Source: Diplonema papillatum (taxonomy: Eukaryota > Euglenozoa > Diplonemea > Diplonemida > Diplonemidae). Taken from it: a stretch of DNA of 64,000 nucleotides. Of the stretch, positions 10,112 through 64,000 are shown piece after piece; positions within the stretch are counted from its first letter, which is position 1; each line of letters starts with the position of its first letter. Both the position numbers and the translations under genes were made by a program. The notes beneath the pieces were generated by a model. The model did no database searches. It was not told the origin of the DNA and saw only the letters and a program-made list of their open reading frames with translations. Location: NCBI GenBank assembly GCA_030068145.1, contig JAPJBO010000023.1, positions 496,001-560,000 of the forward strand, given 5' to 3'.

Positions 10112-10546
10112 ACCTTATACAGAAAGGGTGGACAACAAGAACTGTGGTACTACGCCAGGCACACTTTCGGCACGTGTTGGAGGGCTACCCTCGAAACACG
10201 GCACAGTGACCACAGCATCTTTCCTAGGCTAGTAAACGTGAGGCGATGGTCTACCCGCGAAGCCAAGGTGGCGTGTGCAGGCAGACCGAGAGAGGAACAG
10301 GGCAATTTCCCAACTTTTTCAGAGGCAGGGGGGTGGTGGGTATGTTTGAACCCGGTGGGTGTCGACACGACGACCGCCAACAACTTGGCTTTCGCTTAAT
10401 GCACCAACCGTGCAGTAGTCACTGGGATGACCAGTCGTGTGACAAGTTCCACATCCGAATTTGGGACGAGAGGTCTCTAGTCGTCAAAGTTTCCGAAGAC
10501 TCCCTTTGGACAGCTACACCGTTGCCATCCAGGGTATGGGGAAGAC

Positions 10547-10571
10547 CAGGGCCCCTTTTTTGGGGCCCCTG
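10547..10571 (-). other. GC hairpin in ADH 3' flank (copy 1 of 4)
   Basis: GGGCCCC and GGGGCCC (10549-10555 and 10562-10568) pair around a loop of six T (A on the transcript), about 110 nt downstream of the stop. The same hairpin is at about 12713, 14894 and 17058, once per unit. It could be a 3' UTR structure or processing signal. It is not a bacterial terminator, since no T-run follows on the minus strand. Confidence 0.5.
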
Positions 10572-10680
10572 CAGGATGTTGATTGTACTTTTCGTGCTGC
10601 TATGCAGAAACGAGCCCAGTCAGGGCAGGGGCTCTCGCATAATACGTTTCTTCGCGACAGGCAATCAAAAGTCACGACGG

Positions 10681-11736
10681 CTACTGTTCCTTTAGACTTT
10701 GCATGTCGATGACGAAGCGGTAGCGCACATCCGACTTTTGCATGCGGTCAAAGGCAGTGTTGATGTCCTGCATGCGGATCATCTCGCACTCGGGGAGGAT
10801 GTTCTTCTTCGCGCAGAAGTCGAGCAGCTCCTGCGTCTCCGGAATGCCTCCGATCAGCGACCCTGCAATCGACCGTCTCCCCGTCACCATCGGAGCTGTG
10901 TTGATCTCTTCCATCATTCCGATCTGGCCCACCATCACAATCGTGGCATCCACATCGAGCAACGGAAGGTAATCGTTCACGTCGTGCTTCACCGGCACTG
11001 TGTCCACAATCAAGTCAAATGATGACGCCGCCTTCTTCATCGCCTCTTCATCCTTCGAAACAAGGAAGCTGTCGGAACCCAGCGAACCTGCTTCCTTCTT
11101 CTTCGCGTCGGATCTGCTGATTACCGTCACATGAGCTCCCATCGCCGCAGCCAGCTTCACAGCCATGTGCCCAAGACCACCCAGTCCGACGACGCCAACA
11201 CGAGAGCCGGGCCCAACGTTGTACTTCCGAAGAGGCGAGTAAGTGGTCACCCCTGCACAGAGCAGCGGGGCTGCACGCTTGATGTCAAGTCCTTCCGGCA
11301 CGCGCAGGCAGAACTCTTCACGCACGACGTTGTACGTGGAGTAGCCTCCCATCGTCATGTCCCCCGTCTCGCGGTCTGGGCTGTTGTACGTCTGTGTGTT
11401 GCCTTTCCTGCAGCACTGCTCCTGCCCGCGGTGGCACTGGTCGCACGACAGACAACTGTCAACCATGCAGCCCACGGCGACGGTGTCACCCTTTTTGAAC
11501 TTCTTCACGTCCGATCCTACTTTCTCGACGCGACCCACAATCTCGTGTCCGGGTACCACCGGGTACTGTGTCGAGCCCCAGTCGTTCCTCGCCTGGTGCA
11601 AGTCTGTGTGGCATACTCCGCAGTACAATACTTCGAAAGCAACGTCGTTCTTCCTCAACGCGCGGCGCTCGAACTTCAGCTCCTTCAAAGCCTCTTCCGC
11701 GGAATGCGCAGCGTATCCAACCGTGGCGTGCGACAT
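10681..11736 (-). CDS. zinc-dependent alcohol dehydrogenase (cinnamyl-ADH type), copy 1
   Basis: 351 residues from the ATG at 11736, the usual length for the NADP-dependent medium-chain dehydrogenases of the cinnamyl alcohol/YahK group. These interconvert aldehydes and primary alcohols. Visible landmarks: catalytic-zinc residues in CGVCHTDLH and GHEIVG, the structural-zinc cysteines in CLSCDQCHRGQEQCC, and the nucleotide-binding turn VGLGGLGHMAVK. The open frame continues upstream without a stop to 12081, giving a possible 466-residue form. I chose 11736 because family homology begins there and because copy 4 starts at the same place with an unrelated upstream sequence. The leader just before the ATG is A/C-rich. 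No signal peptide is seen, so the protein is probably cytosolic. Confidence 0.93.
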   Translation of the reverse strand: MSHATVGYAAHSAEEALKELKFERRALRKNDVAFEVLYCGVCHTDLHQARNDWGSTQYPVVPGHEIVGRVEKVGSDVKKFKKGDTVAVGCMVDSCLSCDQCHRGQEQCCRKGNTQTYNSPDRETGDMTMGGYSTYNVVREEFCLRVPEGLDIKRAAPLLCAGVTTYSPLRKYNVGPGSRVGVVGLGGLGHMAVKLAAAMGAHVTVISRSDAKKKEAGSLGSDSFLVSKDEEAMKKAASSFDLIVDTVPVKHDVNDYLPLLDVDATIVMVGQIGMMEEINTAPMVTGRRSIAGSLIGGIPETQELLDFCAKKNILPECEMIRMQDINTAFDRMQKSDVRYRFVIDMQSLKEQ

Positions 11737-12081
11737 CGTTGGTGGAGTTGTGGTTGTTATTTTCGTTTGAACCTTTTGAGAAAATATGATGACGATTGCT
11801 GTGCGCAAAGGACTCCTATCGTGCTGAGTATGAAAGTTTCTCCATTTCCAGCTTCTGTCAAAACTGCACTCCGTCACCGACAGTACTAGATGACCCTTGT
11901 CAATCCGTTCCTTTCTTTCGACTCGCCGCAGTTTTGGCCACCGGGTTGAATCGGGGGGTTTCTTCGGATATGCATCAGAAATGAAGTTCCCATTGTTATC
12001 CAACTGATCCCCAAAAGCACCTTCCCCTGCGTAGATCGCCATCGATTTAATCAGCCGGCCGCAGACCCACTGCTGATCCAT
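11737..12081 (-). other. open 115-codon extension upstream of ADH copy 1
   Basis: From an ATG at 12081 the frame runs unbroken into the ADH gene and reads like protein (MDQQWVCGRLIKSMAIYAG...). It is identical in copies 1, 2 (13901-14245) and 3 (16082-16426) and absent from copy 4. It resembles no dehydrogenase domain that I know. It may be a gene fragment carried along by the tandem duplication, or a true alternative N-terminus; a splice-type acceptor (TTTGCGCACAG) lies inside it, which argues for untranslated leader. Confidence 0.4.
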
Positions 12082-12844
12082 TTAGAGTGTAAGTTCGCTT
12101 AGAGATCTCCGAGGCCTTAAGTCTTCGGAAAGATTCCTTTCATTTTCTCAGAGACTTGCATACACAGCTTAATCTGCTGCACGAGGTCTTTGAGCCCTCG
12201 TTGTATCTGAGAAGACATCGACACTTACCTTCCAACGAGACCGGGCCACTTCCACAGCGGCAAATCGAACACAGGAACAATCCGCACAGTCGGGCAGCGG
12301 TATCTCTTACAGAAAGGGTGAACAACAAGAACTGTGGTAGTACGCCAGGCACACTTTCGGCACGTGTTGGAGGGCTACCCTCGAAACACGGCACAGTGAC
12401 CACAGCATCTTTCCTAGGCTAGTAAACGTGAGGCGATGGTCTAGGCAGACCGAGAGAGGAACAGGGCAATTGCCCAACTTTTTCAGAGGCAGGGGGGTGG
12501 TGGGTATGTTTGAACCCGGTGGGTGTCGACACGACGACCGCCAACAACTTGGCTTTCGCTTAATGCGCCAACCGTGCAGTAGTCACTGGGATGACCAGTC
12601 GTGTGACAAGTTCCACATCCGAATTTGGGACGAGAGGTCTCTAGTCGTCAAAGTTTCCGAAGACTCCCTTTGGACAGCTACACCGTCGCCATCCAGGGTA
12701 TGGGGAAGACCAGGGCCCCTTTTTTGGGGCCCCTGCAGGATGTTGATTGTACTTTTCGTGCTGCTATGCAGAAACGAGCCCAGTCAGGGCAGGGGCTCTC
12801 GCATAATACGTTTCTTCGCGACAGGCAATCAAAAGTCACGACGG

Positions 12845-13900
12845 CTACTGTTCCTTTAGACTTTGCATGTCGATGACGAAGCGGTAGCGCACATCCGACT
12901 TTTGCATGCGGTCAAAGGCAGTGTTGATGTCCTGCATGCGGATCATCTCGCACTCGGGGAGGATGTTCTTCTTCGCGCAGAAGTCGAGCAGCTCCTGCGT
13001 CTCCGGAATGCCTCCGATCAGCGACCCTGCAATCGACCGTCTCCCCGTCACCATCGGAGCTGTGTTGATCTCTTCCATCATCCCGATCTGGCCCACCATC
13101 ACAATCGTGGCATCCACATCGAGCAACGGAAGGTAATCGTTCACGTCGTGCTTCACCGGCACTGTGTCCACAATCAAGTCAAATGATGACGCCGCCTTCT
13201 TCATCGCCTCTTCATCCTTCGAAACAAGGAAGCTGTCGGAACCCAGCGAACCTGCTTCCTTCTTCTTCGCGTCGGATCTGCTGATTACCGTCACATGAGC
13301 TCCCATCGCCGCAGCCAGCTTCACAGCCATGTGCCCAAGACCACCCAGTCCGACGACGCCAACACGAGAGCCGGGCCCAACGTTGTACTTCCGAAGAGGC
13401 GAGTAAGTGGTCACCCCTGCACAGAGCAGCGGGGCTGCACGCTTGATGTCAAGTCCTTCCGGCACGCGCAGGCAGAACTCTTCACGCACGACGTTGTACG
13501 TGGAGTAGCCTCCCATCGTCATGTCCCCCGTCTCGCGGTCTGGGCTGTTGTACGTCTGTGTGTTGCCTTTCCTGCAGCACTGCTCCTGCCCGCGGTGGCA
13601 CTGGTCGCACGACAGACAACTGTCAACCATGCAGCCCACGGCGACGGTGTCACCCTTTTTGAACTTCTTCACGTCCGATCCTACTTTCTCGACGCGACCC
13701 ACAATCTCGTGTCCGGGTACCACCGGGTACTGTGTCGAGCCCCAGTCGTTCCTCGCCTGGTGCAAGTCTGTGTGGCATACTCCGCAGTACAATACTTCGA
13801 AAGCAACGTCGTTCTTCCTCAACGCGCGGCGCTCGAACTTCAGCTCCTTCAAAGCCTCTTCCGCGGAATGCGCAGCGTATCCAACCGTGGCGTGCGACAT
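12845..13900 (-). CDS. zinc-dependent alcohol dehydrogenase, copy 2
   Basis: 351 residues with a protein sequence identical by eye to copy 1, including all zinc ligands and the GLGGLG nucleotide-binding motif. Only silent changes were noticed (for example near 13080). The upstream 115-codon open extension and the 3' hairpin are also kept, so the whole unit was duplicated recently or is being homogenised. Expression is probably shared along a polycistronic minus-strand transcript; that is inference from gene direction. Confidence 0.93.
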   Translation of the reverse strand: MSHATVGYAAHSAEEALKELKFERRALRKNDVAFEVLYCGVCHTDLHQARNDWGSTQYPVVPGHEIVGRVEKVGSDVKKFKKGDTVAVGCMVDSCLSCDQCHRGQEQCCRKGNTQTYNSPDRETGDMTMGGYSTYNVVREEFCLRVPEGLDIKRAAPLLCAGVTTYSPLRKYNVGPGSRVGVVGLGGLGHMAVKLAAAMGAHVTVISRSDAKKKEAGSLGSDSFLVSKDEEAMKKAASSFDLIVDTVPVKHDVNDYLPLLDVDATIVMVGQIGMMEEINTAPMVTGRRSIAGSLIGGIPETQELLDFCAKKNILPECEMIRMQDINTAFDRMQKSDVRYRFVIDMQSLKEQ

Positions 13901-15025
13901 CGTTGGTGGAGTTGTGGTTGTTATTTTCGTTTGAACCTTTTGAGAAAATATGATGACGATTGCTGTGCGCAAAGGACTCCTATCGTGCTGAGTATGAAAG
14001 TTTCTCCATTTCCAGCTTCTGTCAAAACTGCACTCCGTCACCGACAGTACTAGATGACCCTTGTCAATCCGTTCCTTTCTTTCGACTCGCCGCAGTTTTG
14101 GCCACCGGGTTGAATCGGGGGGTTTCTTCGGATATGCATCAGAAATGAAGTTCCCATTGTTATCCAACTGATCCCCAAAAGCACCTTCCCCTGCGTAGAT
14201 CGCCATCGATTTAATCAGCCGGCCGCAGACCCACTGCTGATCCATTTAGAGTGTAAGTTCGCTTAGAGATCTCCGAGGCCTTAAGTCTTCGGAAAGATTC
14301 CTTTCATTTTCTCAGAGACTTGCATACACAGCTTAATCTGCTGCACGAGGTCTTTGAGCCCTCGTTGTATCTGAGAAGACATCGACACTTACCTTCCAAC
14401 GAGACCGGGCCACTTCCACAGCGGCAAACCGAACACAGGAACAATCCGCACAGTCGGGCAGCGGTATCTCTTACAGAAAGGGTGAACAACAAGAACTGTG
14501 GTAGTACGCCAGGCTCACTTTCGGCACGTGTTGGAGGGCTACCCTCGAAACACGGCACAGTGACCACAGCATCTTTCCTAGGCTAGTAAACGTGAGGCGA
14601 TGGTCTACCCGCGAAGCCAAGGTAGGCGGACCGAGAGAGGAACAGGGCAATTGCCCAACTTTTTCAGAGGCAGGGGGGTGGTGGGTATGTTTGAACCCGG
14701 TGGGTGTCGACACGACGACCGCCAACAACTTGGCTTTCGCATAATGCGCCAACCGTGCAGTAGTCACTGGGATGACCAGTCGTGTGACAAGTTCCACATC
14801 CGAATTTGGGACGAGAGGTCTCTAGTCGTCAAAGTTTCCGAAGACTTCCTTTGGACAGCTACACCGTCGCCATCCAGGGTATGGGGAAGACCAGGGCCCC
14901 TTTTTTGGGGCCCCTGCAGGATGTTGATTGTACTTTTCGTGCTGCTATGCAGAAACGAGCCCAATCAGGGCATGGGCTCTCGCATAATACGTTTCTTCGC
15001 GACAGGCAATCAAAAGTCACGACGG

Positions 15026-16081
15026 CTACTGTTCCTTTAGACTTTGCATGTCGATGACGAAGCGGTAGCGCACATCCGACTTTTGCATGCGGTCAAAGGC
15101 AGTGTTGATGTCCTGCATGCGGATCATCTCGCACTCGGGGAGGATGTTCTTCTTCGCGCAGAAGTCGAGCAGCTCCTGCGTCTCCGGAATGCCTCCGATC
15201 AGCGACCCTGCAATCGACCGTCTCCCCGTCACCATCGGAGCTGTGTTGATCTCTTCCATCATTCCGATCTGGCCCACCATCACAATCGTGGCATCCACAT
15301 CGAGCAACGGAAGGTAATCGTTCACGTCGTGCTTCACCGGCACTGTGTCCACAATCAAGTCAAATGATGACGCCGCCTTCTTCATCGCCTCTTCATCCTT
15401 CGAAACAAGGAAGCTGTCGGAACCCAGCGAACCTGCTTCCTTCTTCTTCGCGTCGGATCTGCTGATTACCGTCACATGAGCTCCCATCGCCGCAGCCAGC
15501 TTCACAGCCATGTGCCCAAGACCACCCAGTCCGACGACGCCAACACGAGAGCCGGGCCCAACGTTGTACTTCCGAAGAGGCGAGTAAGTGGTCACCCCTG
15601 CACAGAGCAGCGGGGCTGCACGCTTGATGTCAAGTCCTTCCGGCACGCGCAGGCAGAACTCTTCACGCACGACGTTGTACGTGGAGTAGCCTCCCATCGT
15701 CATGTCCCCCGTCTCGCGGTCTGGGCTGTTGTACGTCTGTGTGTTGCCTTTCCTGCAGCACTGCTCCTGCCCGCGGTGGCACTGGTCGCACGACAGACAA
15801 CTGTCAACCATGCAGCCCACGGCGACGGTGTCACCCTTTTTGAACTTCTTCACGTCCGATCCTACTTTCTCGACGCGACCCACAATCTCGTGTCCGGGTA
15901 CCACCGGGTACTGTGTCGAGCCCCAGTCGTTCCTCGCCTGGTGCAAGTCTGTGTGGCATACTCCGCAGTACAATACTTCGAAAGCAACGTCGTTCTTCCT
16001 CAACGCGCGGCGCTCGAACTTCAGCTCCTTCAAAGCCTCTTCCGCGGAATGCGCAGCGTATCCAACCGTGGCGTGCGACAT
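15026..16081 (-). CDS. zinc-dependent alcohol dehydrogenase, copy 3
   Basis: 351 residues, protein identical by eye to copies 1 and 2. The unit carries a 17-bp insertion in its 3' flank relative to units 2 and 4 and a few point changes there (for example around 14853 and 14965-14975), but the coding part is unchanged. This contrast between spacer and coding sequence suggests selection or gene conversion acting on the enzyme. Confidence 0.93.
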   Translation of the reverse strand: MSHATVGYAAHSAEEALKELKFERRALRKNDVAFEVLYCGVCHTDLHQARNDWGSTQYPVVPGHEIVGRVEKVGSDVKKFKKGDTVAVGCMVDSCLSCDQCHRGQEQCCRKGNTQTYNSPDRETGDMTMGGYSTYNVVREEFCLRVPEGLDIKRAAPLLCAGVTTYSPLRKYNVGPGSRVGVVGLGGLGHMAVKLAAAMGAHVTVISRSDAKKKEAGSLGSDSFLVSKDEEAMKKAASSFDLIVDTVPVKHDVNDYLPLLDVDATIVMVGQIGMMEEINTAPMVTGRRSIAGSLIGGIPETQELLDFCAKKNILPECEMIRMQDINTAFDRMQKSDVRYRFVIDMQSLKEQ

Positions 16082-17189
16082 CGTTGGTGGAGTTGTGGTT
16101 GTTATTTTCGTTTGAACCTTTTGAGAAAATATGATGACGATTGCTGTGCGCAAAGGACTCCTATCGTGCTGAGTATGAAAGTTTCTCCATTTCCAGCTTC
16201 TGTCAAAACTGCACTCCGTCACCGACAGTACTAGATGACCCTTGTCAATCCGTTCCTTTCTTTCGACTCGCCGCAGTTTTGGCCACCGGGTTGAATCGGG
16301 GGGTTTCTTCGGATATGCATCAGAAATGAAGTTCCCATTGTTATCCAACTGATCCCCAAAAGCACCTTCCCCTGCGTAGATCGCCATCGATTTAATCAGC
16401 CGGCCGCAGACCCACTGCTGATCCATTTAGAGTGTAAGTTCGCTTAGAGATCTCCGAGGCCTTAAGTCTTCGGAAAGATTCCTTTCATTTTCTCAGAGAC
16501 TTGCATACACAGCTTAATCTGCTGCACGAGGTCTTTGAGCCCTCGTTGTATCTGAGAAGACATCGACACTTACCTTCCAACGAGACCGGGCCACTTCCAC
16601 AGCGGCAAATCGAACACAGGAACAATCCGCACAGTCGGGCAGCGGTATCTCTTACAGAAAGGGTGAACAACAAGAACTGTGGTAGTACGCCAGGCACACT
16701 TTCGGCACGTGTTGGAGGGCTACCCTCGAAACACGGCACAGTGACCACAGCATCTTTCCTAGGCTAGTAAACGTGAGGCGATGGTCTAGGCAGACCGAGA
16801 GAGGAACAGGGCAATTGCCCAACTTTTTCAGAGGCAGGGGGGTGGTGGGTATGTTTGAACCCGGTGGGTGTCGACACGACGACCGCCAACAACTTGGCTT
16901 TCGCTTAATGCGCCAACCGTGCAGTAGTCACTGGGATGACCAGTCGTGTGACAAGTTCCACATCCGAATTTGGGACGAGAGGTCTCTAGTCGTCAAAGTT
17001 TCCGAAGACTCCCTTTGGACAGCTACACCGTCGCCATCCAGGGTATGGGGAAGACCAGGGCCCCTTTTTTGGGGCCCCTGCAGGATGTTGATTGTACTTT
17101 TCGTGCTGCTATGCAGAAACGAGCCCAGTCAGGGCAGGGGCTCTCGCATAATACGTTTCTTCGCGACAGGCAATCAAAAGTCACGACGG

Positions 17190-18245
17190 CTACTGTTCCT
17201 TTAGACTTTGCATGTCGATGACGAAGCGGTAGCGCACATCCGACTTTTGCATGCGGTCAAAGGCAGTGTTGATGTCCTGCATGCGGATCATCTCGCACTC
17301 GGGGAGGATGTTCTTCTTCGCGCAGAAGTCGAGCAGCTCCTGCGTCTCCGGAATGCCTGCGATCGGCGAACCCGCAATCGACCGTCTCCCCATCACCATC
17401 GGAGCTGTGTTGATCTCATTCATCATCCCGATCTGGCCCACCATCACAATCGTGGCATCCACATCGAGCAACGGAAGGTAATCGTTCAAGTCGTGCTTCA
17501 CCGGCACTGTGTCCACAATCAAGTCAAATGATGACGCCGCCTTCTTCATCGCCTCTTCATCCTTCGAAACAAGGAAGCTGTCGGAACCCAGCGAACCTGC
17601 TTCCTTCTTCTTCGCGTCGGATCTGCTGATTACCGTCACATGAGCTCCCATCGCCGCAGCCAGCTTCACAGCCATGTGCCCAAGACCACCCAGTCCGACG
17701 ACGCCAACACGAGAGCCGGGCCCAACGTTGTACTTCCGAAGAGGCGAGTAAGTGGTCACCCCTGCACAGAGCAGCGGGGCTGCACGCTTGATGTCAAGTC
17801 CTTCCGGCACGCGCAGGCAGAACTCTTCACGCACGACGTTGTACGTGGAGTAGCCTCCCATCGTCATGTCCCCCGTCTCGCGGTCTGGGCTGTTGTACGT
17901 CTGTGTGTTGCCTTTCCTGCAGCACTGCTCCTGCCCGCGGTGGCACTGGTCGCACGACAGACAACTGTCAACCATGCAGCCCACGGCGACGGTGTCACCC
18001 TTTTTGAACTTCTTCACGTCCGATCCTACTTTCTCGACGCGACCCACAATCTCGTGTCCGGGTACCACCGGGTACTTAGTCATGCCCCAGTCGTTCCTCG
18101 CCTGGTGCAAGTCTGTGTGGCATACTCCGCAGTACAATACTTCGAAAGCAACGTCGTTCTTCCTCAACGCGCGGCGCTCGAACTTCAGCTCCTTCAAAGC
18201 CTCTTCCGCGGAGTGCGCAGCGTATCCAACCGTGGCGTGCGACAT
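17190..18245 (-). CDS. zinc-dependent alcohol dehydrogenase, copy 4 (slightly divergent)
   Basis: 351 residues. It differs from copies 1-3 in a few clusters: GMTKYPVV instead of GSTQYPVV, HDLNDY instead of HDVNDY, MMNEINTAPMVMG instead of MMEEINTAPMVTG, and SPIAGIPE instead of SLIGGIPE. Zinc ligands and the cofactor motif are unchanged. Its 5' flank is unrelated to the other copies; a pyrimidine-rich stretch and TTGCAG at about 18280-18296 would serve as a (trans-)splice acceptor upstream of the A/C-rich leader. The ATG matches the one chosen for the other copies and settles the start of the whole family. Confidence 0.93.
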   Translation of the reverse strand: MSHATVGYAAHSAEEALKELKFERRALRKNDVAFEVLYCGVCHTDLHQARNDWGMTKYPVVPGHEIVGRVEKVGSDVKKFKKGDTVAVGCMVDSCLSCDQCHRGQEQCCRKGNTQTYNSPDRETGDMTMGGYSTYNVVREEFCLRVPEGLDIKRAAPLLCAGVTTYSPLRKYNVGPGSRVGVVGLGGLGHMAVKLAAAMGAHVTVISRSDAKKKEAGSLGSDSFLVSKDEEAMKKAASSFDLIVDTVPVKHDLNDYLPLLDVDATIVMVGQIGMMNEINTAPMVMGRRSIAGSPIAGIPETQELLDFCAKKNILPECEMIRMQDINTAFDRMQKSDVRYRFVIDMQSLKEQ

Positions 18246-35171: not shown

Positions 35172-35599
35172 AGTGTTTTTTGGGGGGGGTCTGAGACCCC
35201 CCAATTCCACGTCGTGTATCGTTATATTACAATTGAACGGGGCAAATACCATTCTCACACAAAAAAACAAATTTTTACCATTCTCACACAAGTTTCAACA
35301 AACCTTACCATTCTCACACGGTCGCAACAAATTTTACCATTCTCACACAAGCTCCAACAAATGTTACCATTCTCACACAGTCGCAACAAATGCTACCATT
35401 CTCACACAGTCGCAACAAATACCAAAGACCAGAGAGGCGGGTTTGAACCGACGCCACTCAAATCCTAAGATTATAAGACCCCAAACTTTCCAAAGGGCCA
35501 AAGTGACTTGAATTGCAATGTGTCAAGTTTGGGCATTCTCACCCGGGGAATACGCGTAAAGTAGTCGGGGTTGATTCGTGCTGAGCGGCGTGCTCTTCC

Positions 35600-35875: not shown

Positions 35876-36448
35876 GGCTTCGGCAGTCCACACTGCAGCA
35901 TCTGCCCAAGTGTTGGTAAGTGGTGGTACCGGCCAAATACCTGACTCAGACCGGGGCTCTGGAGTGCAATGAGAGCTCCAGCCGGGGCTCCGGGCCCACA
36001 CTGTCTCGAGCGCTCTTCGCTCTGCGGTTGGGGTCCTGATTGGCTTCGCTTCATGGAACCGTCGTGACTCTGGCGCCCCAGGCTTCCCTGCTGCATCACC
36101 CTCGCCGCCTGCGTGGTTGCAGCCTCACCGACCCTCACTGAGGCTCGGTAGGCTGCAGCGGGCCCGGCAGTGAGGCCTCAGTGAACAGGGCAAGCAGGTG
36201 CCAGGAAACACGCCAAAATATGCCCAGAAAACTTCGAAACTGAAGAACTTTGGGGCGAAAAGTATCCTGAATGGGCTGGGAACCCCCCCCAAAAAAAGAG
36301 CTACAAAAGGCTACAAAAGGCTACAAAAGCTACGCTGTAGCTAGCTATAGCTTCTTGTAGCTAAACCTCACACTGCCCTGTAGCTTTCTAATCATTTTGT
36401 GTGTACACGCGACTGTGTGAGAATGGTAGCATTTGTTGCGACTGTGTG

Positions 36449-38368
36449 CAGGGCTGGTTAGCCACAACTTGCCACAATGTGGCCCATTGGGCCACAACTT
36501 TAGCCACAATGTTGTGGCTAAATTGTGGCTAAATGTGCAAATTTTTTGATCGAAAAAAAGACCGCCCAAAACACGCTAAACACCGTTTTTCGGGTAGATT
36601 TTCGTGTTTTTTGGATGGTTTTGGGTATTCTGGGCCTCATACCCCCCCAACAGACCTCGAGTTCGCCTTTCGTGGATTCGAGTGGTTTTTGCCAACTTGC
36701 AGCCAAGTGCTGCCAGTTTCTGGGGTGACTCAGCCAGAATTCGCTATTATTTTGCGAAATCCGCGGCGTGTGGGGGTTTTCCCGGTTGGTACTGGACCCT
36801 TTCGACAATTTCAGGTGGATTCTGTGCGAATAAACGGGGGAAATGCTTGCCAGGCTCCCCGGTCCCGTGCGCTGCGCAACACGGGATGGGTATCTTCGTG
36901 TCACGTGCACGTTCCAAACATGGTTCATGCTACCGCGGTCCCGGTTTATTGCCACTGCCACTCCCAACAGCTCGAGAGTCGACTGGGACTCACCTTTCCT
37001 CTCAGCAGTCCTGATTCAGGCTGCGAAAGCTTGACATCCTTCAATTCATGCCACTGACATTCTGAATTGAAGTTGTTCCAGCCGCGGAACTGCATGCAAC
37101 GACGTTCACTCATCCACTCATCCGCTTTTTCGTTCTTCTTCGTCACGGCTTAGTTCAGTGCGAATCGCACCGAGCCTGGTCACCAGGTTGGTGCTGCTCG
37201 GAGCCGCACCCGAGGGAGATGCAGAACAGGTTGTATCACAACCGGTGCGCATCAGCTCTGCATCGCCGTGCACTGCACGGTGTAGCACTGCCCAGGCGCG
37301 GCGAGACCAGTGACCGTCATCCTGCTCGGTGTTCAGGAGGAGGTGACCCGCTTGGCAGGCAGCACCGCTGCGCAGTGTACTCTTCCGTACTCTGCACCGT
37401 GCAAGCGCCAGTCATGTGCTTACCAGACTCTCGGTTTCGCGTTCTCATCATGGCATCAAATTTGACGGTGAAATCAGCCCCCAGCCTGAGTCCAGGATAG
37501 GTTGCTTGCAATGCAACAGTTGCAACAAGTAATCGATGAACGGAAACTTTTTACAGTAGCAAGGAACCGACAGCAAACTGGTGCACGGGTCGGTGCAAAT
37601 CCTGTGCAACGGGTTTGCGGACATGATCGTGTCGCATTCGTAGTGAACTGTTGAAGTCATTATCCGCGATGACAGCCTACCCCGGGACTTGGACCGAGTC
37701 CTGCTGTCGAAAATACCACAGTGTTCAAAATCGCCGGCGATTGAATCGGTCTGGACAGCAGGCTGGTCGCCACACGGTTCTTTTTTTGAAGTGTACGGAG
37801 CCTGGGCCTTAGCCGGAAACATGGGAACATGAATGTACCTGGCCATCCTTTAGCTCCGTTAGGTCGGGAGAGGAACGGTTTCCGGTGTGCCTTGTTGTCG
37901 GCTCCGGTTAGAAGTCCGGTTGGGGAGCTTCGTCACGTGTGGCCACCGTGTGGAACGAGGAGCCTGGCAAGGATTTCCCCCGTTTATTCGCACAGAATCC
38001 ACCTGAAATTGTCGAAAGGGTCCAGTACCATCCGGGAAAACCCCCACAAGCCGCGGATTTCGCAAAATAATAGCGAATTCTGGCTGAGTCACCCCAGAAA
38101 TTGGCAGCACTTGGCTGCAAGTTGGCAAAAACCACTCGAATCCACGAGAAGCGAACTCGAGGTCTGTTGGGGGGGTATGAGGCCCAGAATACCCAAAACC
38201 ATCCAAAAAACACGAAAATCCACACAAAAAACGGTGTTTAGCGTGTTTTGGGTGGTCTTTTTTCCGATCAAAATTTTTGCACATTTAGCCACAATTTAGC
38301 CACAACATTGTGGCTAAAGTTGTGGCTAAATGGGCCACAATGTGGCAAGTTGTGGCTAACCAGCCCTG
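36449..38368. mobile_element. 1.9-kb foldback element with ~410-bp inverted arms (hAT-like ends)
   Basis: Left arm 36449-36858 and right arm 37959-38368 are inverted copies, more than 90 percent alike by eye. Ends read CAGGGCTGGTTAGCC / GGCTAACCAGCCCTG. The 7-bp CTGTGTG flanks both sides (36442-36448, 38369-38375); deleting the element restores a normal unit of the 29-bp subterminal array. CAGGG ends and a 7-8 bp duplication fit hAT-type elements. The 1.1-kb centre has no credible gene. Confidence 0.8.
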
Positions 38369-38665
38369 CTGTGTGAGAATGGTAGCATTTTGTTGCGACT
38401 GTGTGAGAATGGTAAGAAATTGTTTGGACTGTGTGAGAATGGTAGCATTTGTTGCGACTGTGTGAGAATGGTAAGAAATTGTTTGGACTGTGTGAGAATG
38501 GTAGCATTTGTTGCGACTGTGTGAGAATGGTAGCATTTGTTGCGACTGTGTGAGAATGGTAGCATTTGTTGCGACTGTGTGAGAATGGTAGCATTTGTTG
38601 CAACCGTGTGAGAATGGTAAGAATTGTTGAAAAAGTGTGAGAATGGTGTTTACCCCCAATTGAAC

Positions 38666-38760
38666 TCAATTGTAATTGGCCCCCCCCAGTAGCCCAGTCT
38701 ACCATAGAAAATGGGGTACCCTGAGACGTTTACCCCCCCAAAAAGGCCTTTTTTTTTGGC
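38666..38760. other. right end of the second TA element and short junction
   Basis: TCAATTGTAATTGG and C8 AG then TA (to 38691) form the right end of the left-damaged TA element. The remainder is unassigned DNA ending in a T-run and TTTGGC just before the first LINE. Confidence 0.5.
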
Positions 38761-39708
38761 GTCCTCAAGCGCCTGCTCCCTCTGACCACCACGCCCCTCA
38801 ACATCCTCATCATCAGTGATTCGCAGTCGCTCCTGCAAACGCTGAGCCACGGCCCGCTCTGCCAGACGCAACCCGGGCCAATCCACATCTGGCAATCGCT
38901 GGCCGAACTCGAAGCGCGGGGCTACACCATCACCCTGCAGTTCGTTTTTGGCCATTGCGGTCTTGCCGGCAACGAGAGGGCTGACGGAATCGCCAGACGG
39001 GCCGCTGAGACATACATGCGGGAAGCGGTTGCGGCTATGGCGAGGAACCTCCCCCTCCCTTATGCGCCTAAAGTCTGCACCACGACCGTTAACGCCCGCC
39101 ACCGTGCCGTCCTGTGGATGGAGAGCAGCGAAGCTGGAGCTCGGGAAGCCGTGAGTAGAGCCGCCCGCCTACAAAACCCGTCGTCTTTCTCGAGGTTGGT
39201 TTTCGGCCGCCGCATCCCACGACCCAAGCACCTCACACCGCGGGCCGAAAGGGAAGTGCGGCAAATTCGCACCGGCCACCACCACCTCGTGATGACGATG
39301 TATGCTACCAACTGGCCAACCCTCACGAGAGCAGACCGCAGGGAACCGCACCTCCCCTGTCCCATGTGCGGCACGAGGTCGCTGGCCCCGCTCGTTCACC
39401 TCTTCATCGGCTGTGACGCCCCCGCTGCTCAGACCTCTCGGCTAGAAATGAAGAACGGCCTCGAGGTCAGGAATCGTCTCGGTAGGAGGTCGCCGCCCGT
39501 GGACGCCATGGAGTTCCTCTGGGCCGTCCTGTTCGTGTTCCCGGAGCTCGCTCTCGCCTATCTGCAGGGGAGCGGCGCTCTCCCGAAGTACACCATCCTC
39601 GCCGATGAGACGGCCAGTTCGCATCCCGCCACTGCAGCCGTCGACCACCCACGCACCTCCGAAGTCTCCTCGCGGTCCGCCGACTCAGAGGATGCCGTAC
39701 CTCTATAA
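38761..39708 (+). CDS. LINE A polyprotein C-terminus: RNase H remnant and zinc knuckle (5' truncated)
   Basis: About 315 codons in one open frame. The N-terminal part is the second half of an RNase H domain (IISDSQSLLQTLSHGP, then FGHCGLAGNERADGIA with the final catalytic aspartate); the first catalytic residues are lost by truncation. Then follows a ~90-residue linker and a C-terminal knuckle (CPMCGTRSLAPLVHLFIGC). This RNase H-then-knuckle order matches ingi/L1Tc-type LINEs. There is no reverse transcriptase, so the copy is dead, but the frame is intact, so the insertion is fairly recent. Confidence 0.85.
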   Translation, partial: VLKRLLPLTTTPLNILIISDSQSLLQTLSHGPLCQTQPGPIHIWQSLAELEARGYTITLQFVFGHCGLAGNERADGIARRAAETYMREAVAAMARNLPLPYAPKVCTTTVNARHRAVLWMESSEAGAREAVSRAARLQNPSSFSRLVFGRRIPRPKHLTPRAEREVRQIRTGHHHLVMTMYATNWPTLTRADRREPHLPCPMCGTRSLAPLVHLFIGCDAPAAQTSRLEMKNGLEVRNRLGRRSPPVDAMEFLWAVLFVFPELALAYLQGSGALPKYTILADETASSHPATAAVDHPRTSEVSSRSADSEDAVPL

Positions 39709-40502
39709 GCGATCGTACGGAGATTCGAAGCAGGGGTCGCCCCCCTTCCAAGAAGTCCTCGACGCTGCTGTTAGCATCGCGCTCGGCCCTCGGCCACCGC
39801 TAACGTAACTTGGCTAGATCTTCGAGAAGAGGAAACAGAACCCCGATACTTTGCAGTGTAGTTGTGTTTCGGCACCCGGTCTTTACTTCGGTAAAGCCCT
39901 ACGGGAATAAGCCTGATCATCCACATTGTGAACCACAAGAAGTACTGCTACGGAGCCGGACCCGTCCCCTATTTTGAACTGTATTTGAGCACCGTCGCGA
40001 CATCATTGAACATACGTTATTGTACCATAACCGTGCTTACTGCACGAGCTCCCAACGTCATGTGGCCCGCGAAACTGCGGCCTCACTTCGGGTCTTCCCC
40101 CTTGCGGGCATGCGGAAGGTTCATGCCCAAGTCCAACCCTCTCGGAGTTGGACCATTATACGAGCCAACGTCGCGATGCTTCCCGGCCGACAAATAGGCC
40201 AGAAGGGGCGAAGTCACGCCTTATGTGTCACCCAACGTCTCGAGGCCTTGCGCCCGCAACGGGTCTTCCACCAGGCCTCACTCGATCGCCACCTGGCAGA
40301 TCGAGTGAAAGGCCCAAAAACTGGACACCCACTCACTTATCCTTGTTCCATAGTCCATCCCTATCTCTCTTACCTGTGTCTTGTGTCTCTGTGGCCTGCC
40401 TTCCGGCGCGAATAGGCCTGTACCGCCTAACCCGAAAACTCGACGTGCTCTCCCGAGCGCGTAAAGAAAGTGGTGCCTCTTGCAAAAAAAAAAAAAAAAA
40501 AA
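38761..40502 (+). mobile_element. 5'-truncated ingi-like LINE A, with 3' UTR and A19 tail
   Basis: Homology to LINE B starts at 38761 with no upstream element sequence, as in a 5'-truncated insertion. Coding part to 39708, 3' UTR 39709-40483 (closely related to that of LINE B, ending GTGGTGCCTCTTGC), then A19 at 40484-40502. The next bases are TTTGGCATTCGGG. The DNA before the 5' junction ends TTTTTTTTTGGC, so a duplication of TTTGGC is possible. Confidence 0.85.
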
Positions 40503-40620
40503 TTTGGCATTCGGGTTTTTGGGCTCCCGCTCCGGAAGCAACCGGATACCGGCAGCCCCGCTGTACTAACATGTCGAGTACAGTGTCCCGCGCTCCAAAA
40601 AAAAAAAATTTGGCATTCGG
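40503..40620 (+). mobile_element. short A-tailed retroposed piece between two copies of the target sequence
   Basis: Between TTGGCATTCGGG (40504-40515) and TTGGCATTCGG (40610-40620) lies an ~81-bp unique sequence ending in A12 (40597-40608). It has no visible relation to the LINE 3' ends. It may be a tiny SINE or a retroposed RNA copied by the LINE machinery. Confidence 0.65.
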
Positions 40621-42429
40621 TATTGATCTTGGGCCGTCGGTCACCATCAAGCCGGACCACGGCCTGCCCGTCAAGCCCACCGGCGACCGACGCACGTTCG
40701 ATGCCTCTTTGCCCGCCGGCAAACACCCGCACAGCTACCGCGCCGAGGAGTTCGCGCTCTACAGCTGCCTGAAGTTCCTCCTGCGCCTCCTCCCGCCAAC
40801 CCCGACGCCGCTCAACATCCTCGTCCTCAGTGACTCTCAGTCACTCCTGATGACGCTGAGCCACGGCCCCCATTGCCAGACGCAGCCGTACCCAATCGCG
40901 ATCTGGCTGCACCTGGCCGAGTTGGAGTCGCTGGGCTACACCGTGACGCTGCAGTTCGTCTTCGGCCACTGCGGCCTCGAAGGCAACGAGAGGGCGGACA
41001 AGACCGCAAAACGTGGTGCACTCGCGTTCATGCGGGCGGCCACCGACGCCGCGGCCAAGAATCTACCCCCTCCGCTCTCGGCACGCCTCTGCGCCACGGC
41101 CGCTAACAGCCGCTATCGTTCCGTCCTCTGGCTGGAGAGCAGTGAAGCTGGAGCACGAGACGCCTTGGACAGGGCCACCCTCCTCAGGAACCCGTCGTCG
41201 TTCGCCAGGTTGGTCTCTGGCCGCCGCATCCCCCGCCCCAAGCACTTGGCACCACGGGCGGAAAGAGAGGTGCGGCAGCTCCGCACTGGCCACCACCACC
41301 TGGTGATGACCATGTACGCCACCGAATGGCGCGACCTCTCGAGGGCGGATCGCAGACAGGCGTTTCTCCCGTGCCCTATTTGCGGCACCCGGTCGTTGGC
41401 CCCGCTACTCCACCTCTTCGTCGGATGTGACGCCCCCGCTGCAGCGCTGTCCAGGCTGACGATGGACGCCGACCTCGACGCGAAGAGCCGCCTCCATGCG
41501 AAGCCGCCGCCCGTCGATGCCATGGAGCGCCTCTGGGCAATCCTCTTCGTTTTTCCGGAACTCGCTCTGGCGTACCTGCAGAGGTGCGGCACTCTGCCGA
41601 GCTACGCCATCCTCGCCGGTCAGGCGTCCGGCGAGCCCGTGGGTGGCGGCGCCAATCGCTCGATCACGCCTGACGCCGCCTCCTCGCGCTCCGCCGACTC
41701 GGAAGACGCGATCTCGCGCTGAGGGCGCTCGCCACCTGCTTGCGCGCTGCTGGCTGAACGGCGAGCTCGGGGCTGTTGCCCATTTGAACATGCAATGTAG
41801 ATAGCCTCTATTCGAGCCAACCCGGCTTCTCCTGCAACAATTCTGAAACTGTATTGTTTTTGGGACTAGATAATGGCGCTGAGCAAGCTATATTTTTCCC
41901 TGGCGAAATGCATAGCCGGGGCAGAGACAGCGGGCGCCGGCCTACGGACCGTGCCCAGTCACGGGCCAGTACACAGCCATAGTCAGTCCCCAACGTCCCG
42001 CCGGTGCCTCGATACCCGGCCGTCAAGGCCCTACGGGGAGAGGCACCGCAATCAAACAAGCAACCGTGTGCTCCGCCACACCACACCATCCTTTCATTCC
42101 ACCATGCTTCCCACATTCCAACACTCTCCCCCCCTCCGAGTTCCAGTGGCAGAGAAAGAAAGAAAGAAGCCAGAGGTCTCCCGGGTCTTCCACCTGGCCT
42201 CACTCAACCGCCACCTGGCTGGTTAGTGTGAAAGGCTCAGATACTGGACACCCACGCACTGTTAACCCCCCTGTACCATAGCCCATCCCCATCACTCTTG
42301 CATGTGTCTTGTGTCTCTCTGGCATGCCTTCCGGCCCGAAGAGGCCCGTAAAGCCTGCCCGAAAACTGGAACGCGGCTCTCCGGAGCTGCCAAAAGAATG
42401 TGGTGCCTCTTGCAAAAAAAAAAAAAAAA
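40621..42429 (+). mobile_element. 5'-truncated ingi-like LINE B, with 3' UTR and A16 tail
   Basis: Flanked by an 11-bp direct repeat, TTGGCATTCGG, at 40610-40620 and 42430-42440; this is the target-site duplication. Coding part to 41722, 3' UTR 41723-42413 similar to LINE A, tail A16 at 42414-42429. It is truncated in the RNase H region, slightly further upstream than LINE A. Confidence 0.9.
40622..41722 (+). CDS. LINE B polyprotein C-terminus: RNase H and zinc knuckle (5' truncated)
   Basis: About 366 codons. The RNase H domain is nearly whole: FDASLPAGKHP with the first aspartate, YRAEEFALY with the glutamate, LSDSQSLLMTL with the second aspartate, and FGHCGLEGNERADKTAK with the last His and Asp. 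The knuckle CPICGTRSLAPLLHLFVGC follows near residue 250. It ends with a Ser/Asp-rich tail (SRSADSEDAIS) shared with LINE A. No reverse transcriptase. The open frame happens to extend upstream through the short retroposed piece, but that part is not element sequence. Confidence 0.88.
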   Translation: MDLGPSVTIKPDHGLPVKPTGDRRTFDASLPAGKHPHSYRAEEFALYSCLKFLLRLLPPTPTPLNILVLSDSQSLLMTLSHGPHCQTQPYPIAIWLHLAELESLGYTVTLQFVFGHCGLEGNERADKTAKRGALAFMRAATDAAAKNLPPPLSARLCATAANSRYRSVLWLESSEAGARDALDRATLLRNPSSFARLVSGRRIPRPKHLAPRAEREVRQLRTGHHHLVMTMYATEWRDLSRADRRQAFLPCPICGTRSLAPLLHLFVGCDAPAAALSRLTMDADLDAKSRLHAKPPPVDAMERLWAILFVFPELALAYLQRCGTLPSYAILAGQASGEPVGGGANRSITPDAASSRSADSEDAISR

Positions 42430-42440
42430 TTGGCATTCGG
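42430..42440 (+). other. insertion target sequence abutting the tRNA gene
   Basis: TTGGCATTCGG lies directly before base 1 of tRNA-Val and directly after the A-tail of LINE B. Copies follow each of the other two A-tails (40504-40514, 40610-40620). I take this as the original tRNA 5' flank, duplicated by each insertion. Confidence 0.88.
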
Positions 42441-42514
42441 GTTCCCGTGGTCTAGTTGGTTATGACGTCGCCTTAACACGGCGAAGGTCTCCGGTTCGAG
42501 CCCGGACGGGAATA
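42441..42514 (+). tRNA. tRNA-Val(AAC)
   Basis: 74 nt, no intron. Acceptor stem GTTCCCG pairs with CGGGAAT (first pair G-U), discriminator A at 42514. Anticodon stem TCGCC/GGCGA closes the loop TTAACAC, anticodon AAC. T-arm TCCGG-TTCGAGC-CCGGA is perfect and gives a good internal B box (GGTTCGAGCC); the A box is TGGTCTAGTTGG. A pol III terminator follows two bases later. It lies inside the large intron of the TauE gene, on the opposite strand. Confidence 0.95.
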
Positions 42515-42515
42515 C

Positions 42516-42525: not shown

Positions 42526-43850
42526 CCGAGAATCGGAACCCGAGAATCGGAACCCGAGAATCGGAACCCGAGAATCGGAACCCGAGAATCGGAACCCGAG
42601 AATCGGAACCCGAGAATCGGAACCCGAGAATCGGAACCCGAGAATCGGAACCCGAGAATCGGAACCCGAGAATCGGAACCCGAGAATCGGAACCCGAGAA
42701 TCGGAACCCGAGAATCGGAACCCGAGAATCGGAACCCGAGAATCGGAACCCGAGAATCGGAACCCGAGAATCGGAACCCGAGAATCGGAACCCGAGAATC
42801 GGAACCCGAGAATCGGAACCCGAGAATCGGAACCCGAGAATCGGAACCCGAGAATCGGAACCCGAGAATCGGAACCCGAGAATCGGAACCCGAGAATCGG
42901 AACCCGAGAATCGGAACCCGAGAATCGGAACCCGAGAATCGGAACCCGAGAATCGGAACCCGAGAATCGGAACCCGAGAATCGGAACCCGAGAATCGGAA
43001 CCCGAGAATCGGAACCCGAGAATCGGAACCCGAGAATCGGAACCCGAGAATCGGAACCCGAGAATCGGAACCCGAGAATCGGAACCCGAGAATCGGAACC
43101 CGAGAATCGGAACCCGAGAATCGGAACCCGAGAATCGGAACCCGAGAATCGGAACCCGAGAATCGGAACCCGAGAATCGGAACCCGAGAATCGGAACCCG
43201 AGAATCGGAACCCGAGAATCGGAACCCGAGAATCGGAACCCGAGAATCGGAACCCGAGAATCGGAACCCGAGAATCGGAACCCGAGAATCGGAACCCGAG
43301 AATCGGAACCCGAGAATCGGAACCCGAGAATCGGAACCCGAGAATCGGAACCCGAGAATCGGAACCCGAGAATCGGAACCCGAGAATCGGAACCCGAGAA
43401 TCGGAACCCGAGAATCGGAACCCGAGAATCGGAACCCGAGAATCGGAACCCGAGAATCGGAACCCGAGAATCGGAACCCGAGAATCGGAACCCGAGAATC
43501 GGAACCCGAGAATCGGAACCCGAGAATCGGAACCCGAGAATCGGAACCCGAGAATCGGAACCCGAGAATCGGAACCCGAGAATCGGAACCCGAGAATCGG
43601 AACCCGAGAATCGGAACCCGAGAATCGGAACCCGAGAATCGGAACCCGAGAATCGGAACCCGAGAATCGGAACCCGAGAATCGGAACCCGAGAATCGGAA
43701 CCCGAGAATCGGAACCCGAGAATCGGAACCCGAGAATCGGAACCCGAGAATCGGACCCAAGAAACGGGAATCGGGACCCAAGAATCGGGACCCAAGAATT
43801 GCGGGACCCAAGAATCGGGACCCAAGGGACCCAAGAATCGGGACCCAAGC
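42526..43850. repeat. 14-bp satellite, ~88 copies plus degenerate tail
   Basis: Unit CCCGAGAATCGGAA repeated almost without change from 42526 to about 43755; then a variant unit (AATCGGGACCCAAG, with length changes) to about 43850. Each unit contains CCGA-GAA-TCGG, a small inverted repeat. The unit has no stop codon in several frames, so it yields long fake proteins on both strands. It starts six bases after the tRNA terminator. Confidence 0.97.
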
Positions 43851-63065: not shown

Positions 63066-63170
63066 AACCCAAACAACTATGCGCAACTATGCGCAACTAT
63101 GCGGAAAAGCCCAAACAACTATGCGCAACTATGCGCAACTATGCGGAAAAGCCCAAACAACTATGCGGAA
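63066..63170. repeat. tandem repeat, 42-bp unit (~2.4 copies) built from ACTATGCGCA words
   Basis: Each unit has two ACTATGCGCA words and one ACTATGCGGAAAAGCCCAAACA. It interrupts the end of the RT/RNase H fragment to its right. Confidence 0.9.
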
Positions 63171-64000
63171 TGCTTTGTGCGCTTCACTCGGTGACAATGA
63201 ACCCGTGACGGAAGATCCGCAGGATTCCCGGCGCTTTTTACCAGATAAGGAAATGTTCATGTGGCGCAGGCGTGTGAGCCCGTTCACCACGGCATCGTTC
63301 AAAGTCTGCGATCGCAGACATGCCCCTTTCCGAGCAACACCCTGCACCGTCGTGTTGTCGACCACGACGGTGACCGTGCCGCCCGCGTACTTGTCAGGCA
63401 CTGCCGACACACAAAGTTCAAATGCAAGGGCCTCCAGCTCGTTGATGTGAAGGCCCTTTTCTTTCCTGGACCACCGCGAGCCCAGAACTTCGATCGCGTT
63501 GGTGGCGACGTCAACCAGCACGCCGCCCCATCCCTCGAGACTTGCGTCCACAAACACGGTGAGCGACGGCACCCGGGCCGCCACTGGCATTCTTCGCTTC
63601 TCCAACACCGCGCGAACCCAGCCGTCGAGTAGCCGCTGCACACTACCCGAGAGGCGAACCGTCTGGTCGACGGCCTTCTCGCCCCGGTTCAGCGCATTCG
63701 TCAACCGGCGAAGAAACTTCAAGGCGAAGTAGAACTCGCCGACGAAAACACCCACGATGGCCGACGCGTGCAGCAACCGACCACCCAGCGTCTCCAGACC
63801 GGACGCGGACATCGCACCCTTGCGCACCTCTACCAGATCCCGTGCCAATTTCTTCGACAACCTTGCCGAAATGCCGACCTTCCCGCTCTGGTGGTCCCAG
63901 TCCACCCCGATAAACTCGTACCGGGTGCTGGCGGTTCTCGTGTCGGCGTCCTTCCACGTTACCTTCGAACGAGCTGCCAATTCGTCGACCTTGCGGGACG
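63129..64000 (-). CDS. DIRS/Ngaro-like RT-RNase H polyprotein fragment (partial at both ends)
   Basis: The frame is open to the right edge, so the N-terminal reverse transcriptase is outside the window. Seen are the end of an RT connection domain (YEFIGVDWDHQSGKVGIS ... LGGRLLHASAIVG), then an RNase H core with VFVDASLEGWGG, HINELEALAFE and VVVDNTTVQGVA carrying the catalytic Asp, Glu and Asp, followed by KGACLRSQTLNDAV. GWGG and DNTT are typical of the DIRS/Ngaro group of tyrosine-recombinase retrotransposons. The C-terminus runs into the 42-bp repeat and stops at 63129, so the element is truncated there and no recombinase is visible. Confidence 0.7.
   Translation of the reverse strand, partial: SRKVDELAARSKVTWKDADTRTASTRYEFIGVDWDHQSGKVGISARLSKKLARDLVEVRKGAMSASGLETLGGRLLHASAIVGVFVGEFYFALKFLRRLTNALNRGEKAVDQTVRLSGSVQRLLDGWVRAVLEKRRMPVAARVPSLTVFVDASLEGWGGVLVDVATNAIEVLGSRWSRKEKGLHINELEALAFELCVSAVPDKYAGGTVTVVVDNTTVQGVARKGACLRSQTLNDAVVNGLTRLRHMNISLSGKKRRESCGSSVTGSLSPSEAHKAFRIVVWAFPHSCA

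Follow-up and report, generated by a model that had tools for sequence, protein, structure and literature searches.

A tower of non-LTR retroelement insertions on the 5′ flank of a tRNA-Val gene in Diplonema papillatum, and probable delivery of several element families to Pol III-type promoters

The tRNA-Val(AAC) gene and the insertions on its 5′ flank

The stretch analysed here, called the window, comprises 64,000 nucleotides of contig JAPJBO010000023.1 of the diplonemid Diplonema papillatum (G000:C23:496001-560000 of a 271-Mb genome in 2910 contigs) and holds a tRNA-Val(AAC) gene on whose 5′ flank long interspersed nuclear elements (LINEs) without long terminal repeats (non-LTR elements) stand one behind the other. 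A scan of the window found the 11-mer TTGGCATTCGG in three exact copies and no further one, even allowing one mismatch; tails of A19, A12 and A16 each stand directly before one copy and the last copy touches base 1 of the tRNA gene, placed by ARAGORN at 42441 (Table 1), just as the first-pass annotation had described this locus. Together with the surveys reported below, this makes it probable that non-LTR insertions were stacked into a tower on one tRNA 5′ flank and that the families concerned are delivered to promoters of the RNA polymerase III (Pol III) type. At the tRNA genes concerned, the distance from the element 3′ end to the start of the mature tRNA is 4-29 bp, mostly 10-14 bp, and the element has the orientation of the tRNA.

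The element nearest the gene, LINE B, matches a copy on a different contig (locus L022) with 99.9% identity along 1809 bp, and the alignment begins exactly at 40621. A start right after the middle TTGGCATTCGG copy, combined with this identity, indicates a young 5′-truncated insertion with an 11-bp target duplication, in agreement with the earlier description of LINE B as cleanly flanked by two copies. The short piece upstream of it had been taken for a non-autonomous passenger; instead, positions 40516-40611 are 100% identical to the 3′ end of an element of about 6.4 kb in locus L011 (LINE-C), and the piece is the last 93 bp or so of a 5′-truncated LINE-C. LINE A aligns to L022 with 74% identity at 38762-39615 and 83% at 40260-40502, with no alignment between these stretches, and on its left only TTTGGC of the target is repeated. 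Further left, an end (..GTTTACCCCCCC A5) resembles 3′ ends in L094, where it follows a tRNA-like unit, and in L024; the tower may thus have four storeys.

The 11-mer is the tRNA 5′ flank duplicated as a target site. The alternative that it belongs to the LINE 3′ end was rejected, because 97 of the other 98 LINE 3′ ends in the sample described below extend past the tail and none of the 97 carries it. The tRNA structure is intact. A short search gave the gene 59 bits, although Rfam, run on the whole window at the gathering threshold, returned no match; a tRNA model built from nine sequences, this gene among them, gave 81.8 bits. Right behind the gene starts a 14-bp satellite (CCGAGAATCGGAAC; 89 copies, 42526-43767), and similar short satellites begin several other tRNA downstream flanks.

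Table 1. Features of the tRNA-Val(AAC) locus, in window coordinates.
Feature	Position	Strand	Basis
Possible fourth, oldest storey; end ..GACGTTTACCC then A's, only A5 here	38699..38744	+	by eye
TTTGGC closing a T9 run; possibly a short target-site copy to the left of LINE A	38755..38760	+	sequence; weak alone
LINE A, 5′-truncated divergent LINE-AB relative, A19 tail 40484-40502	38762..40502 (about)	+	L022 alignment
First TTGGCATTCGG: flank to the right of LINE A; target-site copy to the left of LINE-C stub	40504..40514	+	
LINE-C 3′-terminal stub, A12 tail 40597-40608	40516..40608	+	match to L011
Second TTGGCATTCGG: target-site copy shared by LINE-C stub (on its right) and LINE B (on its left)	40610..40620	+	
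LINE B, 5′-truncated LINE-AB copy, A16 tail 42414-42429	40621..42429	+	L022 identity; family ORF2 domains
Native tRNA 5′ flank TTGGCATTCGG; target-site copy to the right of LINE B	42430..42440	+	exact 11-mer; adjoins tRNA base 1
tRNA-Val(AAC) gene	42441..42515	+	ARAGORN; RF00005 59.1 bits over 42441-42514; tRNA model 81.8 bits

Element 3′ ends and tRNA genes across the genome

For the survey from the LINE side, the 3′ end of the family of LINE B (LINE-AB) was used as query, GTGGTGCCTCTTGC followed by A10, which gave 201 matches in the genome against 0 for the reversed-pattern control. An earlier query that contained the tRNA was biased and the counts rest on this list instead, covering its first 100 ends in contig order, with the apparent duplicate pairs L064/L068, L066/L067, L070/L071 and L039/L043 kept. 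Eleven of the 100 tails are followed within 5-29 bp, on the same strand, by a tRNA gene detected by ARAGORN, and these genes represent nine anticodons (Val AAC three times, Val CAC, Glu TTC, Glu CTC, Ala TGC, Ala CGC, Asp GTC, Gln CTG and Ser CGA). Five further tails are followed by SINE1 and three by SINE2 (short interspersed nuclear elements, SINEs; tRNA-like 5′ ends) and seven by tRNA-like units of other kinds that have a B box, so that a tRNA or tRNA-like unit adjoins 26 of 100 LINE-AB ends. The tail is followed at 30-90 bp by the start of a B-box core in 26 of 100 cases, and in one case such a core starts elsewhere within 270 bp.

The same spacing is found genome-wide, where the motif GGTTCGA occurs past LINE-AB (here with a pattern that lacks the four 5′-most bases of the 201-match query) in 32 copies at a gap of 55-85 and in none at 255-285, and past the 659 exact LINE-C 3′ ends in 48 copies compared to 8. 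Assuming the 211 high-scoring tRNA genes of the published assembly (about 280 Mb, 52% repeats; PMC10161547), tRNA genes are in about 10,000-fold excess at LINE-AB ends, and still in nearly 200-fold excess if all 10,815 first-look tRNA candidates are counted. The excess of tRNA 5′ ends behind LINE 3′ ends that the first-pass annotation had named as support for targeting is therefore present and strongly supports its proposal that LINEs were inserted repeatedly at one tRNA flank by targeting, but LINE-AB prefers tRNA genes strongly without being confined to them. All three tRNAs of at least 50 bits in 238 kb, made up of the window and 20 loci selected for LINE ends, directly follow a LINE 3′ end.

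The survey from the tRNA side took 54 matches of an RF00005 search, from 63 scored of the 10,815 candidates, best scores first; the flanks of 50 genes were newly extracted and four others were added, three of them with just 39-46 bp upstream. A forward 3′ tail lies 4-27 bp upstream of 31 of the 54 tRNA genes, or of 30 of 51 once the duplicates L134, L136 and L143 are dropped. The 31 tails comprise 14 of LINE-C, 5 of LINE-AB, 4 of (AACAG)n, 3 of (CATT)n, 3 of GAAATT (2 without L143) and one each of two further families. Of the 31 tails, 19 thus belong to the two families defined in the window, LINE-AB and LINE-C, for which chance predicts about 0.0006 and 0.002 ends, respectively, before 51 tRNAs. 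Counting second storeys, 31 of 34 tails stand at 4-27 bp and 21 at 10-14 bp upstream; the remaining three, at 133-137 bp, are the second storeys of L154, L165 and L167. The seven signatures counted have no reversed match upstream and none at all in roughly 80 bp downstream of the tRNA genes. Unconfirmed A-tails precede 3 of the 51 genes (L149, L155, L158), and 12 of 51 have no element end within 30 bp.

Serial reuse of one flank is also seen at other genes. Read by eye, the second tRNA-Val on the window's contig (L009) is preceded, from the outermost storey inwards, by an A13 end (family unconfirmed), TCCGG, a (CATT)n stub, CCGGCC, a LINE-AB-like element with A15, GGCC, a LINE-AB with A19 and GGCCGTTCGG; the pieces between the storeys overlap as parts of one flank, which fits serial insertion with short duplications. 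In L053 the order is LINE-AB, GAAA, SINE1, GAAAGAATCAC and a tRNA of 57.7 bits, and in L060 LINE-AB, SINE1, a T-run and a tRNA cut by the end of the locus. As to 5S genes, 16 flanks from 47 genes were inspected, 14 lying mainly outside the array on C1335 and two belonging to array copies behind unusual gaps. In the array, a (CATT)n element stops 7-12 bp before a 5S gene (L189), and an A20 run of unconfirmed origin stands directly before another (L187). One U6 gene lies about 100 bp ahead of a tRNA-Ile on the same strand (G000:C245:167810-168088, L170).

Some LINE-AB tails have other neighbours. LINE-AB stands tail-to-tail with LINE-AB in L097/L098 and in L037, one or a few bases separating the A-run from the T-run. 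In L079, L089, L105, L118 and L020 the tail ends 1-9 bp before the 5′ end of another LINE (CGTTGAGAA), an arrangement that looks compatible both with tower storeys and with template jumping. At two places, L031:172-208 and L082, a spliced-leader exon is followed by a common stretch with an ATG, and in L031 a LINE-AB tail stops 5 bp short of it; the arrangement resembles a retrocopied trans-spliced mRNA. The exon in L082 is the 39-nt 'Euglenozoa 14' exon of PMC3795323.

Element families and other contents of the window

In L016, LINE-AB has a stop-free frame of 1455 codons that carries in the same open reading frame (ORF) an Exo_endo_phos domain (77-285, 53.2 bits) and RVT_1 (578-902, 103.6 bits), and its closest PDB relative is LINE-1 ORF2. 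Its tails measure A10-A36, A10 being the minimum of the search, and an 11-bp duplication surrounds LINE B. An RNase H stretch (PF00075) scores 18.6 bits in L016 and 20.7 bits in the frame of LINE B, both under the cut-off of 25.8, while a different LINE in L014 reaches 26.1 bits. LINE-AB shares with ingi/L1Tc the apurinic/apyrimidinic-type endonuclease (APE), the reverse transcriptase (RT) and the poly-A tail, and to that extent the ingi-type label of the first-pass annotation fits; with the RNase H below threshold, LINE-AB is a candidate member of the ingi clade.

The single frame of LINE-C in L011 runs over 2098 codons between stops. Its RVT_1 score of 29.5 bits is just below the cut-off of 29.6, and at E ≤ 0.001 its RT gave three PDB matches, all R2 (best 3.9e-10). 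At the C-terminus a zinc knuckle, R..HN and RPD-X12-D can be discerned, in register with R2 chain 9nl2 at a weak E of 0.63; AlphaFold gave no usable fold for this part (pLDDT, the predicted local distance difference test, 34), and an Rfam scan of the LINE-C 5′ end found nothing near gathering score. LINE-C is probably a LINE with a restriction-like endonuclease (RLE). Its flanks differ among the 14 tRNA sites, at odds with the one fixed target of R2, NeSL and CRE.

Elsewhere in the window, a 418-bp inverted repeat (36448-36865 and 37952-38369, 96% complementary, 1086 bp between) is accompanied on both sides by arrays of a related 29-bp satellite (35247-35420 and 38369-38647) and is a probable DNA transposon or foldback element. 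Four tandem units at 10278-18245, spaced by about 2.17 kb and with 300-nt sections 98-100% alike, each hold a frame resembling alcohol dehydrogenase (the Pfam analysis covered one unit), and retroelement remains with RNase H-like domains occupy the window ends at 15-2063 and 63129-63980, the latter just under the cut-off.

Insertion at Pol III promoters, alternatives and known systems

A plausible course of events begins with the element endonuclease, which would nick the DNA at −10 to −14, 5′ of the tRNA. Target-primed reverse transcription (TPRT) would start from the 3′ tail at the nick, often stopping early, and a second cut slightly closer to the tRNA, which for LINE B would fall at base −1, would create the duplications of about 4-12 bp. 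Since the tRNA body with its internal promoter stays untouched and a copy of the flank is kept, the same gene can be hit again, and the newest element would stand nearest the tRNA. By analogy with Ty3 and TRE5-A, the elements could be attracted by TFIIIB or TFIIIC, components of the machinery of Pol III initiation. By eye the tRNA flanks share no common motif, so that recognition seems to depend on position and not on sequence, with a possible contribution of T-runs. A wider proposal, to which we give even chances, is that the 5′ flanks of tRNA genes, together with one or more 5S flanks, form a common dock at the Pol III start for elements with two unrelated endonucleases, APE and RLE, and for their SINEs, used at more than half of the sampled tRNA genes and stacked into towers in order of arrival, with a shared host factor, not the DNA recognition of each element, setting the position. 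The idea of a tRNA-targeting ingi-type LINE in the first-pass annotation keeps its targeting, but this is not the quirk of one such LINE, given seven tail signatures, SINE1 included, and one 5S gene.

Several observations weigh against delivery to Pol III promoters. The other 74 of 100 LINE-AB ends lie away from tRNA or tRNA-like units, before unclassified sequence (43), T-runs (26), LINE 5′ ends (4) and a contig end (1). The first-pass annotation had held that a majority of copies away from tRNA genes would refute targeting; literally such a majority exists, yet the excess is strong. All tail signatures except LINE-AB and LINE-C were picked from the very flanks in which they were then counted, and orientation is not absolute, since among the other 21 of 51 genes six (L127, L130, L145, L148, L156 and L161) adjoin reversed, internal or unassigned repeat parts. 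The target duplications vary (11-12, perhaps 6, and 4 bp) and come from few loci. At most 2 of 16 5S flanks are positive and 14 have no element, at a rate that is not unbiased because L189 was chosen for the 6-kb gap preceding it, and none of the 4 U6 flanks examined, of 21 matches (6 over cut-off), has an element. A shuffle control cautions against over-reading the 11-mer as well: with one mismatch allowed, shuffled sequences gave a mean of 1.69 matches, and at least three in 27 of 100 shuffles. The weight therefore rests on three exact copies, an A-tail before each and contact with one tRNA, and chance was rejected as the source of the pattern.

An explanation by open chromatin and survivorship, in which elements insert wherever DNA is accessible and harmless copies before tRNA genes are retained, is unlikely, though it would accommodate the ends away from tRNA genes. 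The 5′ flanks of tRNA genes are nucleosome-poor in other eukaryotes. Accessibility, however, predicts insertions on both flanks and a broad spread, whereas 31 of 34 tails lie 4-27 bp upstream, 21 of them at 10-14 bp, with none of the signatures in roughly 80 bp downstream, and safe sites should not be scarce in a 271-Mb genome of which about half is repeats (PMC10161547).

We consider it less likely still that the endonucleases simply favour the starts of T-runs, with tRNA flanks often carrying T-runs and the link to tRNA genes a by-product. Of the 26 of 100 LINE-AB ends that face a T-run, 18 (the duplicates L097/L098 included) continue as one of five repeated 3′-end signatures reversed, seven of them LINE-AB or LINE-C, and 5 of the 12 element-free tRNA flanks have at least nine T, so that DNA composition may contribute and counts here against pure delivery. 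Many tRNA-adjacent sites have no T-run, however (TTGGCATTCGG, GGCCGTTCGG, GAAATTGAA, GGGCCTTGGC, TGGAG, TTGCGTCCGTC), and families without A-tails and probably two endonuclease types pick the same place. Copying of LINE-tRNA pairs as units, by segmental duplication or by co-insertion through template jumping, is highly improbable: there are clear duplicate loci (L133/L134/L136 and L141/L143), and the LINE-AB tails 1-9 bp before LINE-C 5′ ends could be jumps, but anticodons, flanks, tail lengths and families differ between loci, and jumping onto a tRNA would not repeat the flank round LINE B and the LINE-C stub, or piecewise in L009. Co-insertion of the tRNA was rejected on these flank repeats and on the variety from locus to locus.

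With delivery to Pol III promoters as the preferred reading, the towers would be natural time series of insertion for each gene, and they raise the question of whether tRNA expression tolerates or uses the inserted tails. Among the openly accessible papers listed by a literature search, none reports tRNA targeting in diplonemids, and the literature passages covered (12 of 21) contain none for ingi. Since their copies recur about equally far from a variety of tRNA genes, the elements belong to the functional class of tRNA-5′-targeted non-LTR elements. Among RLE LINEs, NeSL-1_TV, LIN15_SM and LIN25_SM are each specific to one tRNA (Pro, Arg and Glu, respectively; PMC4640811), unlike LINE-C, which adjoins several different ones. 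CRE elements of trypanosomatids (SLACS/CZAR) are like LINE-C in the RT, the motif that is putatively of RLE type in LINE-C, zinc-finger-like motifs and poly-A, and are located in spliced-leader genes (PMC12278014).

The APE-type LINE TRE5-A of Dictyostelium discoideum inserts at Pol III genes, including 5S, by position and not by sequence, and its ORF1 protein interacts with TFIIIB (PMC5911963). TRE5-A lies about 44-54 bp upstream in opposite orientation and has a zinc finger after the RT, compared to 4-29 bp in the same orientation here; by distance and orientation, LINE-AB is not a TRE5. Similar in arrangement are the non-LTR elements Dp_NLTR-A of Dictyostelium purpureum and Pp_NLTR-B of Polysphondylium pallidum, found upstream of different tRNA genes (PMC5006619, PMC5911963). 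Both have an RNase H domain after the RT, where LINE-AB has a weak RNase H stretch; NLTR-A lies 2-6 bp and NLTR-B about 50 bp upstream, while the tails in D. papillatum lie mostly at 10-14 bp, and their hosts are dictyostelids, the host here a diplonemid with a large genome. Yeast Ty3 inserts 1-4 bp before the Pol III start, about 12-15 bp before the mature tRNA (PMC5006619). It is an LTR element with an integrase; the place is the same here, but the 3′ tails and 5′ truncation are those that TPRT gives. In dictyostelids, the targeting of tRNA genes by LINEs has been interpreted as adaptive where the genome is compact (PMC5006619). The genome studied here is euglenozoan and measures 271 Mb, and the position of Ty3 is occupied in it by an APE lineage and, probably, by one with an RLE as well; if true, this is an argument that Pol III promoters have come to serve as landing sites repeatedly or through the host.

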